A stretch of 64,000 nucleotides of DNA from Rhizomicrobium palustre (GTDB taxonomy: Bacteria > Pseudomonadota > Alphaproteobacteria > Micropepsales > Micropepsaceae). The translations under genes and the position numbers were made by a program. Position 1 is the first letter of the stretch. Each line of letters starts with the position of its first letter. Positions 21,751 to 29,322 of this stretch are shown here, piece by piece. The notes beneath the pieces were generated by a model, which saw only the letters and a program-made list of their open reading frames with translations, was not told the origin of the DNA and made no database searches. The stretch covers positions 682,139-746,138 of the forward strand of contig NZ_JAASRM010000001.1 of assembly GCF_011761565.1 (NCBI RefSeq), read 5' to 3'.

Positions 21751-23748
21751 TTAGAAAGTCCTTCGAACCTCGACATAGAGGCGGGCCTGGGAGTGCACTT
21801 GGTAATCCGTCCATTGCACCGCAGGCGAGGAGCCGCGCAAGCCCGAATAGAAGGTGTTCTGATCATCGTAGTTGAACTGGCCCACATTCTTGGCCGCAAC
21901 CGCGATCATCCATTGCGGCGTCGGCTTGTAGTCCCATTCCAGCTCGACATAGAGCGGCGGCAGGTTGCGATCGCGGAACCGGTCCGGGCGGTAGCTGTTC
22001 TCGTGCCAGCCCGTGTAGAAAAAGGCGCTCCAGGTGGATTTCAGGCTGTCGATATCCTGGCTGAAAGTGAATTTGTAGCTGCGCGGGCGGACACCGGAGA
22101 TGGCGCGGGTCTCACCCGTAGCCGGATCGCGCACGCCGGTGAGCTTCCACGCGATGGTGGTTTTTAAACGCCCGTTCGGTAAGCCGAGAAAATCCAGCGG
22201 CAGCATGCTGGAAATGTCGACAAGGTTCTTATGGCCGCCGCCGATATTGCCGGGCGCATTGAAAAAGCCCGACCCACTCGGCACCGGAATGTAATCGAGC
22301 ACACCCGAAATATCTTCATGGGTGAGAGACAGCGAAACCGCGCCGCGCTCCCAGAAATGGCGTTCGAAAGCGATCTGGTATTGCCAATGCCGGTCGGGGG
22401 CAAGATGGGCATTGCCCGCGCTGACACCCGTAGAGGTGAGACTGGCCGAAGCAATGAAGTTGGTGAAATCGAGCTGGCCCAAAACGCGCTCGGCCTTCAT
22501 ACGAATCTGCGTATTGGGTTCTGGCGTGTAGGAGAGGAGCACGCGCGGTTTGGGATAAAAGAACTCGCGCGAAATCCCGCCCTGCTCGGCAATCACCGAA
22601 TATTCGAAGCGCGACCCGGCCTCTAGCTTCCATTTCGGCGAAAAACTCCACATGGCTTGTGCAAAGACTTCGCCGCGGCGTTCTTCCACCCGCGCGTTCG
22701 CGTTTGGCAGCGGCACGATGGTGCCATTGATGGTATAGACCGAGCCGCCATCAAGCTCGTTATAGGCGCCCTCTGCACCGCCTTCGAGGGTCAGATCGGC
22801 ATTGGGGCGATAGCGCAGCGTGGCGCGCAGAATGCTCTCCACCGTGCGCGTGCGCTGGGCAAAGGTTTCAATATCGCCAATCGCATCCTGGATCTGATTG
22901 TCGGTATCGCGGCCGAAACGCTGCAGCGCGAGGGTTTCAAGTTCGGTATCGCCGACCGGTCCCACCCAGTGAAGCCCGATCTCGCCGCGCTTCTGTGCCC
23001 AGCTATCGATATTCGAGAAGCTGTCATTGGCGCCCGTAAACGCCTCGGTCGAGCTTTGCGGGCTGTCTTGATAGGTGAAATTGGCTTTGAACTGCCCGCC
23101 CCACAGCGGCACCGTGGCCGCGCCAGTCGTCATCCAGCCGATACCCCAGCTCTTATAGCGCAGGCCGTAATTGCGGGTGGTCCCGTTCGTCAAATCCTTG
23201 ATGTTATAAAAGCCATGGCCGACGGAATCGTCGTAGCTGGTCGAGGTTTCGAGCGCGAATTCATAGGTGGACTGGCCGACGCGGCGCGTGAGCTGCAACG
23301 AGGCCGAGGGCACCATATGGCCATCGGTCCAGATGTCGTTGGAAATGTCAGCCACGAGCTGGGTGGATTCGACAGTCTTGCGCACGATGTTTGCGACCAC
23401 CGCCTGGCCATGCATATCTATGCCTTGGGCGCCGCCACGAATAAGCTCGATATGATCGACGTCGTTCGCTGGAATCCGGTTCAAGATCGATTGCAGATCG
23501 TTGGTCTTGGCGGTGGGGCGCTGGCCGTCGATCAGAACGTTGCCCGCGGTGCCTGCAAAGCCACGCGCCGATTGGCCGTCATCGAAAACAAAGCCCGGTA
23601 AGCGGGTGATCATGTCATAGGCGGTGGAGGGGCGGGCATCGGCAAAAAAGCTGATCGGATATTGCAGTACGCTACCCTGATCATCCGCGGCCAGAGCAGA
23701 CCCGCTTAACAGGGCTGCTGCCAAAACTGCCGCTCCACAACTCTTCAT
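21751..23748 (-). CDS. TonB-dependent receptor
   Basis: A 665-residue outer-membrane receptor. A signal peptide (about residues 1-20, ending GSALA) is followed by a plug domain with YDMITRLPGFVFDDG and the GNVLIDGQRP segment, then a 22-strand-type barrel ending in the aromatic LYVEVRRTF. The barrel belongs to the outer-membrane-beta-barrel-2/FecA-like class. The substrate is unknown. I use ATG 23748, where the signal peptide begins. A ~93-bp element ending 40 bases upstream is repeated in front of the next minus-strand gene, so the two may share regulation. Confidence 0.9.
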   Translation of the reverse strand: MKSCGAAVLAAALLSGSALAADDQGSVLQYPISFFADARPSTAYDMITRLPGFVFDDGQSARGFAGTAGNVLIDGQRPTAKTNDLQSILNRIPANDVDHIELIRGGAQGIDMHGQAVVANIVRKTVESTQLVADISNDIWTDGHMVPSASLQLTRRVGQSTYEFALETSTSYDDSVGHGFYNIKDLTNGTTRNYGLRYKSWGIGWMTTGAATVPLWGGQFKANFTYQDSPQSSTEAFTGANDSFSNIDSWAQKRGEIGLHWVGPVGDTELETLALQRFGRDTDNQIQDAIGDIETFAQRTRTVESILRATLRYRPNADLTLEGGAEGAYNELDGGSVYTINGTIVPLPNANARVEERRGEVFAQAMWSFSPKWKLEAGSRFEYSVIAEQGGISREFFYPKPRVLLSYTPEPNTQIRMKAERVLGQLDFTNFIASASLTSTGVSAGNAHLAPDRHWQYQIAFERHFWERGAVSLSLTHEDISGVLDYIPVPSGSGFFNAPGNIGGGHKNLVDISSMLPLDFLGLPNGRLKTTIAWKLTGVRDPATGETRAISGVRPRSYKFTFSQDIDSLKSTWSAFFYTGWHENSYRPDRFRDRNLPPLYVELEWDYKPTPQWMIAVAAKNVGQFNYDDQNTFYSGLRGSSPAVQWTDYQVHSQARLYVEVRRTF

Positions 23749-23787
23749 AGGTAAAACTTCCCCCCGGTTTGCAAGGATATTGCCTCT

Positions 23788-23880
23788 CATAACGGGGAAA
23801 GTGGGGAGTCCCTACTATTGGCGGCAAGAATGTCAATTCGCATAGCCGCTATGCGGGGCTGATGGCAATTCAAACTAGCG
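23788..23880 (-). repeat. Direct-repeat leader, copy 1 (upstream of the TonB receptor)
   Basis: This 93-bp segment matches 24943-25035 at 80 of 93 positions by my count, without gaps; the right-hand 60 bases match at 55. It contains a 17-bp perfect palindrome, CGCATAGCCGCTATGCG (23839-23855). Two bases beyond it lies a TTGACA-like -35 hexamer on the minus strand (23831-23836). It precedes a minus-strand gene, as does copy 2. Confidence 0.8.
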
Positions 23881-23987
23881 TGGGTCAGCGCCGCGCCATT
23901 TTGGAGGCTGCGGATGGGTCAGAATACGTGCCTCACGTAAAGGCAAACCGGCACTATCGACGCTGTACGGGGGCGTTCACGGCCACT

Positions 23988-24929
23988 CTACTCAAAACAG
24001 GATGCGGGGGCCGTGCCCATATTCCCGCCGACATAGCAAGGTGCGCCTAACATGCGATCAAGCGCGGGACGCAGGATCATGAGATGGCTCGCACCGAACA
24101 CGACCAGAAGGTTTTCGCCCTCGCCCAAATGATCGGCGATGGTCCCGAGGAGAAAAGCATCTCGCGCACGCCCAACGGCCGCTGCCAATTTGTTGGTGCT
24201 GAAGTCGCCGTCCACCAGCGGGCCAACTTCCTCAAGCTGGAATTTGGAGCCAAAGGCTTGACCATTCGTCCGTTCGTACCACTGCGCCCACGCCGTGTAG
24301 TCCGGAAGCAGAGCCTCCTTGAGCCCAAGCCGGCTTCTATTGCGGATCAACTCGCTTTCAACCAGATCCTTAACGCGAGGATCTCCGCCATCGGCTATTC
24401 TCTTCTCTCTGATCCATTGAGGAACGGATCGGAGCGTATAGAACCCCAACAGATCGACGTCCGAAATGCCCTCGGCGAGAAGGCGATCGCGAATAACGCT
24501 ATCGCCGGGCTCGCCGCCCCAGATATGCGCATGCTGTTGAACCGCGCCGCGTAGAGCTGGAACGCTTTCGCCGCCCATCACAAAGCCGTCGGTTTCGGTT
24601 TGAGATTGAAGCCATTGCAAAGTACGGGGGGCGTCTGGGCCTGCCGCGTATGAGAAGCCTTCGGCAATCAGGGTATCAAATCTTTTGCGCGCATAGACAT
24701 CCGCGATGAGCTTGAATGTTGGGCTATCGGAGCGGGTTGAATGGCTCGCGCCCACGAAGACCAAACTATGCCCTCGCCAGCGATAGACAGCCGCGAAAGC
24801 CTCTTCAGGCTGCCGGTCGCGCAGCTCCCGTGTCCATGGCGCGAGTTGCGTAACATCAGGCTGGGGTGTGCTGGAACAACCCGCCAACAGCGTTCCACAG
24901 AGAAACAAGATTAGGCTTGGGTTGCGCAC
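23988..24929 (-). CDS. Lipoprotein with possible TraB/ChaN-like fold
   Basis: A 313-residue lipoprotein (LILFLCGTLLAGCSST, acyl Cys near residue 18). The mature part has FVGASHSTRSDSP near residue 55, IAEGFSY near residue 89 and a late VVFGASHLMIL. The paired ASH motifs and acidic core resemble the TraB/GumN and ChaN-like superfamily, but I would not assign a function. The start is GTG 24929, with GGGAGAG upstream. The gene lies between the two direct repeats, with copy 2 ending 14 bases before its start. Confidence 0.7.
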   Translation of the reverse strand: MRNPSLILFLCGTLLAGCSSTPQPDVTQLAPWTRELRDRQPEEAFAAVYRWRGHSLVFVGASHSTRSDSPTFKLIADVYARKRFDTLIAEGFSYAAGPDAPRTLQWLQSQTETDGFVMGGESVPALRGAVQQHAHIWGGEPGDSVIRDRLLAEGISDVDLLGFYTLRSVPQWIREKRIADGGDPRVKDLVESELIRNRSRLGLKEALLPDYTAWAQWYERTNGQAFGSKFQLEEVGPLVDGDFSTNKLAAAVGRARDAFLLGTIADHLGEGENLLVVFGASHLMILRPALDRMLGAPCYVGGNMGTAPASCFE

Positions 24930-24942
24930 GCGGCTCTCCCGT

Positions 24943-25035
24943 CATCACGCGGAAAGTGCGAAGACCCACCTATTAGCGGCAAGAATGCCAATTCGCATAG
25001 CCGCTATGCGAGGCCAATGGCGATTCAAACTAGCG
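24943..25035 (-). repeat. Direct-repeat leader, copy 2 (upstream of the lipoprotein gene)
   Basis: The partner of 23788-23880, in the same orientation relative to the minus-strand gene it precedes. The 17-bp palindrome is identical and lies at 24994-25010. The -35-like hexamer reads TTGGCA here. Sequence similarity stops abruptly at both ends of the unit. Confidence 0.8.
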
Positions 25036-25078: not shown

Positions 25079-25654
25079 TCAGGCTGGAGGATAATACGGC
25101 TCCAGCACTTTGGCACAGGCGGTAATCGCCTTGGGTAAAGCCTCGCCTGCCCGGCCCGCTTTGGCCTCGGCAAGGAATTCCTTGATGATCGCATCCCAGG
25201 TGCCTTGCGGAATGTGCAGATCGACATCGCGGTCGGTCACCACTTCCACATAGTGCTCGCCAAAGGAGACGAAGAAGAGGATGCCGGTCTTGCGCTCATT
25301 CTGCGCCAGGATGCGCGAGGCAAAGGCGCGATGTGCGAGTTCCCAGGCTTCCCAGTTCTTGGCATGGCGCGGGATCAAGGCCAACCGCAGGGGAAGAAAT
25401 TCGCTCGCCAGCGCGACAACGGCCGCCGCCGCCGCGGTGAACAGGAACGCCTCGCGCAGATGCATATGGGGCACCAAGGCCGCGAGCACGGTGAAAACCA
25501 GCATCGCCGTGACGCCGGTATAGATGAGCGGATAGAGCTTATAGTGATCGCTTACCGGCACGGTGAGGACAGCGATGCGGGCCGAGGTGCGTTTGGCCGC
25601 CTCATCCTGCGCCGCGCGCAAGGCCTTGCGCTGGTCATCCGAGAGTTTCTGCAT
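25079..25654 (-). CDS. TPM-domain membrane protein
   Basis: A 191-residue protein of the TPM_phosphatase (DUF477) family. A short cytoplasmic start (LSDDQRKALRAAQDEA) is followed by two membrane helices near residues 40-60 and 68-88, then the conserved GILFFVSFGEHYVEVVTD segment. ATG 25654 lies one base after the stop codon of the upstream TPM gene, so the genes are translationally coupled. The cellular role is unknown. The upstream partners are another TPM protein and LemA. Confidence 0.85.
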   Translation of the reverse strand: MQKLSDDQRKALRAAQDEAAKRTSARIAVLTVPVSDHYKLYPLIYTGVTAMLVFTVLAALVPHMHLREAFLFTAAAAAVVALASEFLPLRLALIPRHAKNWEAWELAHRAFASRILAQNERKTGILFFVSFGEHYVEVVTDRDVDLHIPQGTWDAIIKEFLAEAKAGRAGEALPKAITACAKVLEPYYPPA

Positions 25655-25655
25655 C

Positions 25656-26429
25656 TTACCAATTCCCCGATGCACCGCCGCCCCCGAAGGAGCCGCCACC
25701 GCCCGAAAAGCCGCCGCCGCCGGAACCCCAGCCACCGCCGCCACCATCGCCCCAGCCGCCGCGTCCACCGCCGCCCAAACCACCGAGCAAGAACAGCGGC
25801 CAGAGATGACGCCCGAACACGGCCCAGAAGATCACGAGCAAGATGAGGAAGGGAATACCGCCGAGGGGATTGCCGCCGCCCTTATGCTTGCGCGGCTCGG
25901 GAATACCCTCGGCACCGGTGGGATTGCCGCCTAATGTGCGCAGCACATTGACCGTGCCAGCCATCACGCCGCCGTCGTAATCGCCTTTGCGAAAATGCGG
26001 CAGCATGGAGTTTTCGATGATCAGCTTGGACTGGGCATCGGTGAGATCGCCTTCCAGCTTATAGCCGACATCGATACGGGTCTGGCGCTGGTTCGGCGCG
26101 ATCTCGATGAGAACGCCGTTATCCTTGCCCTTTTGCCCGATGCCCCAGGCGCGGCCGAGCTGATAGCCGTAATCGGCGATATCGGTGCCGCCAAGGTCTT
26201 TCAGAGTGACGACCACGACCTGATTGCCGGTCTGCTGCTCATGTTCGGCAAGATAGGCGGTGAGTTTTTCCTTGGCCTCGGGCGAGAGGATGCCCGCCTC
26301 GTCCACCACCCGGCCTGTGAGCGCGGGAAACTGCAGCGCAGCCTCAGCGGGAATAACGGTGAACAGAACAAACAAGGCAGCAAAAAACGCCAGCAGCGGA
26401 AGCCGAGCGCGCTTAAGAAGAGAGGGCAT
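25656..26429 (-). CDS. YgcG/TPM-domain protein with glycine-rich tail
   Basis: A 257-residue exported protein. A signal sequence (about residues 1-31) is followed by a TPM domain (about residues 35-170, with GRVVDEAGILSPE and IEIAPNQRQTRIDVGYKLEG), a membrane helix near residue 190, and a glycine-rich C-terminus that also has tryptophan and serine. This is the standard YgcG layout. It is the middle gene of a lemA-ygcG-TPM operon. A hairpin in the gap to lemA may adjust expression. Confidence 0.9.
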   Translation of the reverse strand: MPSLLKRARLPLLAFFAALFVLFTVIPAEAALQFPALTGRVVDEAGILSPEAKEKLTAYLAEHEQQTGNQVVVVTLKDLGGTDIADYGYQLGRAWGIGQKGKDNGVLIEIAPNQRQTRIDVGYKLEGDLTDAQSKLIIENSMLPHFRKGDYDGGVMAGTVNVLRTLGGNPTGAEGIPEPRKHKGGGNPLGGIPFLILLVIFWAVFGRHLWPLFLLGGLGGGGRGGWGDGGGGGWGSGGGGFSGGGGSFGGGGASGNW

Positions 26430-27397: not shown

Positions 27398-28294
27398 TTA
27401 GTAACGCCAATCCTTGGATTCGCGCACCAGGAAATCACGGAAAGCGGCAACGCGTTTGGACTGGCGCAAAGCATCAGCATAGACCAGATGCACATCGAAG
27501 CTGGGGCCCGGCACATCAGGCATGACGCGGATCAGTTCGGGATGCTGCGCCGCGACGTAATCGGGCACAGAGGCAATGCCAAGACCGGTCAGACAGGCGT
27601 TCAGTACGCCCGTCACGTTATTGATGCGCACGATGCGCCCGCGCGGATTGGGTGCATGACAACGCTTGAACAGATCGCAGAGCCAATTGACCTCACGCAC
27701 TTCCGGCGGCGCGGTTTCGCCATAACCGATCACGGTGTGGTCGGGCAGATCCTCGGCCTTCAACGGCGTGCCATGGGCATCGAGATAGGCCTGGGTCGCG
27801 TAGACGTGATAATGAACGGTGAAGAGCTTTCTCTGAATGAGATCGGCCTGCACCGGCGCGCGCATGCGGATGGCGACGTCAGCCTCGCGCTGGGAAAGAT
27901 CGAGCTCGCGATCCTCCATCACGAGATGGATTTCCAGCTCCGGGCATTCGGTCAAAAGCCCCGACAGGCGTGGTACCAGCCAATAGGTGCCTATGCCATG
28001 GGTGGAGGTGACCTTTAACGAGCCGCGCGGCGCGTCGTGCACATTCTTGAGCGCTTCTTCGGCCTGGGCGAGACGAGCCAGCACATCGCTCACCGCCGCA
28101 TACAGCATCTCGCCTTCATCGGTGAGGGTGAGGCCACGGGCATAGCGCTGAAAGAGCGGTGTGTTGATCTCTTCTTCCAGCGCGCTGATCTGACGGCTGA
28201 CTGCGGACTGGCTGAGGGTCAGCATCTGCCCGGCATGGGTGAAGCTTCCTGCGGACGCCACGGCGTGAAAAATACGCAGCTTGTCCCAGTCCAT
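27398..28294 (-). CDS. LysR-family transcriptional regulator
   Basis: A 298-residue LysR regulator of the GcvA-like class. The helix-turn-helix is near residues 17-38 (FTHAGQMLTLSQSAVSRQIS), with the effector-binding domain after residue 90. GAGGGG lies seven bases before the ATG. It is followed by a small-RNA-like segment, and trxB lies upstream on the same strand with a gap of 56 bases, so the two may be co-transcribed. The trxB-LysR-Lrp neighbourhood is conserved in several alphaproteobacteria (recalled). Confidence 0.9.
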   Translation of the reverse strand: MDWDKLRIFHAVASAGSFTHAGQMLTLSQSAVSRQISALEEEINTPLFQRYARGLTLTDEGEMLYAAVSDVLARLAQAEEALKNVHDAPRGSLKVTSTHGIGTYWLVPRLSGLLTECPELEIHLVMEDRELDLSQREADVAIRMRAPVQADLIQRKLFTVHYHVYATQAYLDAHGTPLKAEDLPDHTVIGYGETAPPEVREVNWLCDLFKRCHAPNPRGRIVRINNVTGVLNACLTGLGIASVPDYVAAQHPELIRVMPDVPGPSFDVHLVYADALRQSKRVAAFRDFLVRESKDWRY

Positions 28295-28350: not shown

Positions 28351-29322
28351 CTACCAGGAGGGCTCAAAATGCGCCCCCGCCAGGAAGCGCTCGGCCTCTA
28401 GCGCCGCCATGCACCCCATCCCCGCCGCGGTGACGGCCTGACGGAAGACGCGATCTTTGACGTCGCCCGCCGCGAAGACACCGGCCACACTGGTATGCGT
28501 GGAATCGGGTGCAGTCTTGATATAACCGAATTCGTCCATCTCCACCTGCCCCTTGAACAAAGAGGTTGCGGGAGAGTGGCCGATGGCAATGAAAAGTCCG
28601 TCCACGTCGATTTCGGTGACGGTGCCGGTGATGCAGTTGCGCAGAGCCACACCTGTCACTCCTTTAGGCGCCTCGCTGCCCAAAACCTCGGCAACCTCGT
28701 GGTCATAGAGGACTTCGATCTTCGGATTGGCCTCCAAACGCTTCATATTGGTCGCATCGCAGCGCAGTTTATCGCGGCGATGGATGAGCGTGACCTTCTC
28801 GGCGAAGTTGGTCAGGAACAGTGCTTCCTCCGCCGCGGTGTTGCCGCCACCGACCACCGCGACCTTTTTTCCGCGATAGAAGAACCCATCGCAGGTGGCG
28901 CAGGCCGAAACGCCCGAGCCCTGGAAGTGATTCTCAGAATCCAGCCCCAGCCAATTGGCCTGGGCGCCGGTGGCGATCACCACCGTGTCGGCGGTGTAGC
29001 GCTGGCCCGAATCCCCGATCAGGGTGAAAGGGCGGCGGGCGAAATCGACCGAAGCGATCAGGTCGGTGACGAAGCGGGTGCCCAGATTCTTGGCCTGCTC
29101 TTCCATCTGTTGCATCAGCCAAGGGCCTTGAATCGCCTCAGCAAAACCCGGGAAATTCTCAATCTCGGTGGTGATGGTGAGCTGCCCGCCCGGCTGCATC
29201 CCGGAAATCAGGATCGGCTCCAGCATGGCGCGGGCGGCGTAAATCGCCGCGGTGCAACCCGCAGGGCCGCTGCCCAGGATGATGACCTTGGAATGGATGG
29301 GGTCATTGGTGGAGTCGGACAC
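28351..29322 (-). CDS. trxB: Thioredoxin-disulfide reductase
   Basis: A 323-residue flavoprotein. The FAD-binding GSGPAGCTAAIYAARA is near residue 17, the redox-active CATC motif is near residue 144 (SACATCDGFFYRGK), the NADPH-binding GGGNTAAEEALFL follows near residue 165, and the C-terminal AAGDV motif is present. It reduces thioredoxin with NADPH in the cytoplasm. It probably supplies electrons to the Cys-type peroxidase found in this window (inference). It is divergent from the Lrp-like gene. Confidence 0.97.
   Translation of the reverse strand: MSDSTNDPIHSKVIILGSGPAGCTAAIYAARAMLEPILISGMQPGGQLTITTEIENFPGFAEAIQGPWLMQQMEEQAKNLGTRFVTDLIASVDFARRPFTLIGDSGQRYTADTVVIATGAQANWLGLDSENHFQGSGVSACATCDGFFYRGKKVAVVGGGNTAAEEALFLTNFAEKVTLIHRRDKLRCDATNMKRLEANPKIEVLYDHEVAEVLGSEAPKGVTGVALRNCITGTVTEIDVDGLFIAIGHSPATSLFKGQVEMDEFGYIKTAPDSTHTSVAGVFAAGDVKDRVFRQAVTAAGMGCMAALEAERFLAGAHFEPSW

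Follow-up and report, generated by a model that had tools for sequence, protein, structure and literature searches.

Two neighbouring genes of Rhizomicrobium palustre, one for a TonB-dependent receptor and one for a lipoprotein, are each preceded by a copy of the same 94-base control region. The best explanation, to which we give a probability of roughly two in three, is that this region is a duplicated operator-promoter which places both genes under an LsrB/VtlR-type regulator. The comparisons below give good support to shared control through such a duplication, and we infer from them LsrB binding, activation, the promoter hexamers and the route of duplication. The parts are ordinary and their arrangement is informative.

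In the proposed mechanism, a LysR-type LsrB/VtlR regulator, most likely the product of the gene at 27398-28294, would bind a dyad of 63 bp. The dyad has CGCAT-N7-ATGCG at its centre, some 20 bp 5' of the putative -35 box TTGCCG, and from this position the regulator would be expected to activate the receptor gene. The promoter would be old in the receptor lineage of the genus. An accessory lipoprotein gene would later have come to lie between a TPM gene and the receptor gene, equipped with a second whole copy of the operator-promoter, and therefore both genes should answer to the same regulator. The genes concerned lie as follows in the window, that is, the whole stretch of 64,000 nucleotides that was analysed.

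21751-23748, minus strand: TonB-dependent receptor gene (PF00593, PF07715); the reading frame opens at 23790
23988-24929, minus strand: accessory lipoprotein gene; GTG start, lipobox LLAGC (by eye), two GASH motifs
25079-25783, minus strand: TPM-domain gene, upstream neighbour of the element, in relatives too
27398-28294, minus strand: LsrB/VtlR-like LysR gene, candidate binder of both copies (domain and structure-sequence matches, full-length alignment)
28351-29322, minus strand: trxB, synteny marker directly upstream of the lsrB-like gene (name from similarity, by eye; synteny in PMC7486931)

Two copies at two gene starts

A repeat search and a base-by-base comparison found 81 identical bases among the 94 of positions 23787-23880 and 24942-25035 (13 mismatches, about 86%), and outside both copies the similarity drops off abruptly. 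At one fixed register, the binomial chance of at least 81 matches in 94 is about 3e-34. An earlier note on this DNA had reported about 80 of 93 positions alike, ungapped and with abrupt ends, which these figures bear out. It had also placed each copy 5' of a minus-strand gene, the TonB-dependent receptor and the lipoprotein gene, as the list of reading frames confirms. Within the receptor frame, a start at 23748 is likelier than one at 23790, judged by eye from the ribosome site and signal peptide. By sequence, the receptor had no match among solved structures.

In the genome itself (4,264,312 bases), BLAST retrieved the second copy at E 7.7e-26 and the next match at E 0.19. With the model search included, the genome-wide total is two copies, both at gene starts. 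Each copy holds the 17-mer CGCATAGCCGCTATGCG, a perfect odd-length palindrome with 8-bp arms and one central base, identical in the two. A pattern search of the 4.26-Mb genome found no further exact copy of its 15-bp core. With up to two mismatches, the core occurs 24 times per strand versus 22 for a reversed control pattern, which is about the same frequency.

A near-palindrome, CGCAGAGCGGCTATGCG, lies at L018:1501-1519 (genome positions 2482479-2482497), 3' of a membrane acyltransferase-like gene, and is either a further site or a chance occurrence.

Operator and promoter architecture

The upstream sequences of 29 receptor homologs from the genus have a common element in most cases. Alignment A3 combines 21 of these 29 regions with the lipoprotein copy, leaving out eight (L039, L041, L042, L047 and L052-L055), and from it a sequence-only search model, R1, was built. 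Across its 22 sequences, the layout is CTAnT, GCA-N9-TGC, 11 or 12 bases, an invariant TTG, AnTAG and a CCAnTTT-like stretch. Apart from one TTG, the most conserved columns make up a 63-bp dyad, CTAnT...GCA-N9-TGC...AnTAG, with the column pairs C5-G67, T6-A66, A7-T65, T9-A63, C28-G44, G29-C43, C30-G42 and A31-T41. The best dyad centre outscores the best centre of every column shuffle (0 of 300 equalled it). The operator is thus wider than the 17-bp palindrome.

23787-23880, minus strand: predicted operator-promoter copy 1, receptor (repeat search; A3; R1 56.2 bits, E 1.2e-16 in the window, the copy being in the training set)
24942-25035, minus strand: predicted operator-promoter copy 2, lipoprotein (repeat search; A3; R1 53.8 bits, E 6.8e-16, the copy being in the training set)
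23839-23855, no strand: 17-bp palindrome, copy 1; contains a VtlR/LsrB-like box, 6 of 7 bases
24994-25010, no strand: 17-bp palindrome, copy 2; contains the same VtlR/LsrB-like box, 6 of 7 bases
23875-23878, no strand: CTAG, the upstream one of the outer half-sites in the dyad of copy 1 (A3 alignment, dyad analysis)
25030-25033, no strand: CTAG, the upstream one of the outer half-sites in the dyad of copy 2 (A3 alignment, dyad analysis)
23815-23819, minus strand: AATAG, the downstream one of the outer half-sites in copy 1; most relatives have it one base closer to the centre
24970-24974, minus strand: AATAG, the downstream one of the outer half-sites in copy 2; most relatives have it one base closer to the centre
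23822-23827, minus strand: TTGCCG of copy 1, probably the -35 hexamer; its TTG is unchanged in all 22 aligned elements, promoter role putative
24977-24982, minus strand: probable -35 hexamer TTGCCG, copy 2; conserved TTG, promoter role putative
23798-23803, minus strand: possible -10 hexamer CACTTT, copy 1; from conservation and spacing, weak
24953-24958, minus strand: possible -10 hexamer CACTTT, copy 2; weak

The palindrome had been noted together with an adjacent TTGACA/TTGGCA hexamer. The palindrome is indeed identical in both copies and the hexamer is present, but relatives do not conserve the hexamer. What all 22 aligned elements share is a TTG lying 12 bases downstream of it. TTGCCG is more likely to be the -35 hexamer than TTGACA. 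ATGC(A/G)-N11-TTG occurs in 25 of 26 sequences (the receptor and lipoprotein copies and 24 relatives), always with a spacing of 11 although 9 to 12 were allowed.

Operators of LysR-type regulators are interrupted dyads of about 15 bp upstream of the -35 box. The conserved GCA-N9-TGC has this form, and its centre lies about 20 bp upstream of the TTG. An example of this geometry is the NodD box, ATC-N9-GAT. The window operator resembles it in its three-base half-sites, nine-base spacer and position upstream of the -35 box, and differs in two ways: its half-sites read GCA/TGC where the NodD box has ATC/GAT, and a second, outer pair flanks them at a distance of about 24 bp.

The 17-mer could also form a stem of about 7 bp in both copies, as a leader hairpin of an attenuator or riboswitch would. 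This is the least probable of the readings considered, as RNAalifold predicted zero pairs for the 22-sequence alignment and no Rfam family reached threshold between 21 and 30 kb; a DNA operator therefore fits better than an RNA leader. Moreover, many relatives keep GCA...TGC while the rest of the stem is broken, and the palindrome is located upstream of the conserved TTG.

The element across the genus

The comparison set comprised 69 genomes of the GTDB genus, which includes Rhizomicrobium electricum, with our own genome counted; some are incomplete, which makes absences soft. Receptor homologs were detected in 54 of the 69, own included (E<=1e-60). At E<1e-5, R1 gave 25 matches in 24 of the 69 genomes; the receptor accounts for 24 of them and the lipoprotein gene for the other. 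Among these genomes only G034, G038 and G041 are independent, because the other 21 contributed training sequences. No element was found at this threshold in 30 of the 54 receptor-bearing genomes. The upstream region of one receptor with 51% identity (L042) has no anchor, and the most distant receptor homologs have other motifs upstream.

The earlier note had raised the prospect of a wider regulon in this genome. The searches did not reveal one: with R1 the two window copies are the only clear sites and the next best scores E 0.28, and a shorter model, R2, gave two matches at E<=0.3. Relaxing R1 to E<=0.05 across the genus produced 60 matches. Thirty-five were weaker than 1e-5, six of them at protease promoters, and five of the remaining weaker ones, when inspected, overlapped reading frames or were unclear. 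R2 was applied to 20 genomes; of 14 weaker matches retrieved, nearly all lie on reading frames or start codons (mechanically called ORFs), and these were dropped as chance. One R2 match, L297, sits between genes.

Around the receptor, the order trxB-lsrB-lemA-tpm-tpm-element-receptor was recovered by tblastn in all five close relatives, each with one CTAGTT...ATGCGAA element at that location. The second TPM gene is directly beside the element in three of them, and other DNA fills the slot in two. This extra DNA between the second TPM gene and the element spans L161:5125-5886 and L163:5177-5887, with one element each.

The candidate regulator

The LysR gene lies 2.4 kb upstream of the repeats, beside trxB. 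Its product aligns over the full length with PDB 9HH1 (E 2e-89), the LsrB of A. tumefaciens (PMC11975290), and the HTH segments are closely similar. The trxB-vtlR order is well conserved in Alphaproteobacteria (PMC7486931), and the window gene likewise lies downstream of trxB, so that similarity and synteny together point to orthology. It thus shares the full-length alignment, HTH and trxB linkage with A. tumefaciens LsrB. The host differs: LsrB has been called unique to Rhizobiales (PMC11975290), whereas the window LysR belongs to Rhizomicrobium.

According to PMC7486931, VtlR binds the box GCAT-N3-TG-N3-T, which has been confirmed for B. abortus and is a hypothesis for A. tumefaciens. We scored all 16,384 boxes of the same spacing against A3 at all positions and on both strands. 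The VtlR box came second, and first among the 420 with the same letters. A3 was built independently of the published box, and its ranks alone are independent. In a further alignment, A6, the box ranks first, which is partly circular as A6 joins the 25 receptor-type elements with ten exact-box protease promoters (of 23 anchored). The box is present in 19 of 48 anchored core sequences, against 6 for the best of 500 letter-shuffled boxes. Exact boxes occur in 8 of the 25 receptor-type elements and in 10 of the 23 anchored protease promoters (30 inspected), in one register and read on the strand opposite to transcription. L030 is counted among the 25, with its anchor on a later site and its mismatch count wrong. 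The window copies each miss one of the seven box bases, and the box match therefore rests on the relatives.

The likeness to the A. tumefaciens VtlR promoters (PMC7486931) includes an LsrB-type gene directly downstream of trxB and, at 6 of 7 bases in the window copies, the GCAT-N3-TG-N3-T box. Sites are few per genome in both: three in A. tumefaciens, at the VtlR/LsrB-regulated promoters of abcR1, atu1667 and vrsA (PMC7486931), and two here. The targets differ: those in A. tumefaciens are small transcripts (PMC7486931), and the predicted ones here are the receptor, the lipoprotein and, in some relatives, a protease. In the account of VtlR promoters that we drew on in PMC7486931, we saw no counterpart of the perfect palindrome or of the outer CTA/TAG half-sites that the window copies have. 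In titles and abstracts of the open-licence literature we found no such site described, which is weak evidence of novelty.

For the small RNA AbcR we took the Rfam family to be RF02345 (database label ar15). A search with it gave no match in 289 genomes and none in 14 controls either, and is uninformative.

Given the agreement of the site with the published VtlR/LsrB box and the presence of an LsrB-like gene nearby, the regulator, which the earlier note had called unknown, is no longer wholly so; the comparative evidence supports the note's reading of a duplicated promoter and operator under one shared control. We predict that the regulator of both copies is probably of the LsrB/VtlR type, which is a strong prediction and not a demonstration. 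The same duplication could instead answer to another LysR-type protein, GcvA-like and encoded elsewhere, which is an unlikely alternative. In its favour, a first look with the LysR query picked out 24 candidate stretches in the genome, of which just a single match reached E<=1e-60, and the adjacent LysR shows sub-cut-off similarity to GcvA and other LysR models as well. Linkage between the LsrB-like gene and the receptor was observed in the closest clade only; beyond it, the two are unlinked where their locations were compared. What favours LsrB over such a protein is that the box is the one published for VtlR/LsrB and that the candidate and A. tumefaciens LsrB have similar HTH segments. Presence of the gene does not discriminate, because LsrB-like genes occur in 64 of the 69 genus genomes, including some without a detected element. 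In G034 (86% complete) the element is present and no LsrB-like match was obtained at E<=1e-60. Within the window, the R1 search found no element copy at lsrB or trxB.

R. palustre is a soil bacterium, and its genus is free-living. If LsrB control is true, LsrB/VtlR, which in Rhizobiales has been examined for its part in host interaction and redox control, would also govern genes for uptake and the envelope in such a genus, and would do so through a site that can be tested.

The lipoprotein gene and the duplication

A search of 59 other genus genomes did not find the lipoprotein gene, nor was it found in G101, and in the class it was found in 7 of 387 genomes, own included. The best relative, in G070, is 51% identical and has no receptor adjoining within 3.9 kb (ORFs by eye). 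A peptide-pattern scan of genome contigs for further relatives found none. Third-position GC is 0.62 in the lipoprotein gene versus 0.71-0.78 in eight neighbours, a value for tpm2 having been disregarded (wrong frame).

As the gene was not found in the relatives searched and the TPM gene, element and receptor adjoin directly in three of the five close relatives, the accessory gene appears to have come with the second operator. Relatives without the lipoprotein have one copy at the receptor; therefore the element predates the insertion. The receptor copy would thus be ancestral, and the lipoprotein would have arrived with, or next to, the second copy. The window copies are about 85-86% alike and only 58-69% similar to the elements of the five relatives; hence the copying postdates their split or used an unsampled nearer relative.

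The possibility, raised in the earlier note, that the lipoprotein gene between the repeats is an insertion therefore agrees with its not being found in the relatives compared. The note's alternative of a mobile or duplicated cassette survives in that respect only, as nothing points to a mobile element. It is improbable that the repeats were left behind by a small cassette, mobile or recombining, that carries the lipoprotein, and that the promoter match is incidental, even though the gene is an accessory insertion and the same slot holds other extra DNA in two of the five relatives. Between the copies, the ORF list shows, by eye, no other long minus-strand gene and no transposase-like ORF. Neither a transposase or recombinase nor dispersed copies were seen, the genome has only two copies, and lipoprotein-free relatives retain one at the receptor.

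Under the preferred reading of a duplicated operator-promoter, promoter copying may be a route by which a newcomer gene enters existing control. If true, the window offers a clean example from nature of how copying a whole control region can bring an acquired gene into a circuit that was already there, and the two diverged copies give an internal footprint of the important bases.

The lipoprotein matches no Pfam or NCBIfam family. H63, E90, E121, R256, G279 and H282 are invariant in all seven aligned sequences, and the first GxxH glycine is not. Proteins of the Tiki/TraB/ChaN/erythromycin-esterase-like group carry two GxxH motifs, a conserved E and R, and an EreA/ChaN-like fold. The lipoprotein resembles them in its two GASH motifs and invariant H, E and R, and departs from Tiki/TraB-like proteins in lacking a family match, in the variable first GxxH glycine and in its weak fold matches. 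Its predicted model (mean pLDDT 85.9) had no Foldseek match at E<=0.001. With VIA-align, the best match was a Tetrahymena complex IV subunit (Z 12.2); EreC, an erythromycin esterase, reached Z 6.7 and a succinoglycan-biosynthesis protein Z 6.0, a level at which, according to the tool, the likeness may be no more than one of overall arrangement. Among the structure matches, chains of Tiki or ChaN were not prominent, and an absent row proves nothing. Motifs and weak fold evidence suggest a Tiki/TraB-like protein, and we do not assign it there.

Protease promoters in relatives

R1 also matches, at E 3e-5 to 0.04, directly 5' of a gene whose product is a secreted PDZ-domain aspartyl protease in G105, G011, G035, G013, G027 and G054. 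The protease family is unlinked to the receptor, and in some relatives the promoter is common to both. These protease promoters count as one event because they are orthologous to each other. In our own genome the protease promoter (L157) has a weak version, with at least two mismatches and off register. The GCATnTTG anchor is missing from 7 of 30 protease upstream regions. In G105 the protease gene and a gene for a periplasmic binding protein (PF01497) are transcribed divergently, and the shared GCAT may partly be the start codon of the latter. As a tentative proposal, LsrB might control a small cell-envelope regulon of receptor, PDZ aspartyl protease and captured lipoprotein via the 63-bp dyad, the acquired gene having been recruited in one step by duplication of a complete operator-promoter.

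The secreted retropepsin-like aspartyl protease with a PDZ domain (L122:401-2248, minus strand, and orthologs) is found in 37 of the 69 genus genomes (E<=1e-30).

More distant receptor loci

Among 31 more distant receptor loci (of 79 fetched), none has a VtlR box within about 330 upstream bases, with gene starts approximate. A TTGTAACTGG-like box lies upstream in 16 of the 31 (L187-L218; Caulobacter, Brevundimonas and kin). Because of this difference, the regulator of the receptor seems to have been exchanged between clades. Five of the 31 (L179-L185) carry TATGCAAGGTATAATG upstream. The upstream regions of L184 and L185 hold AAGGTATCTTG palindromes, which resemble PadR-type sites.
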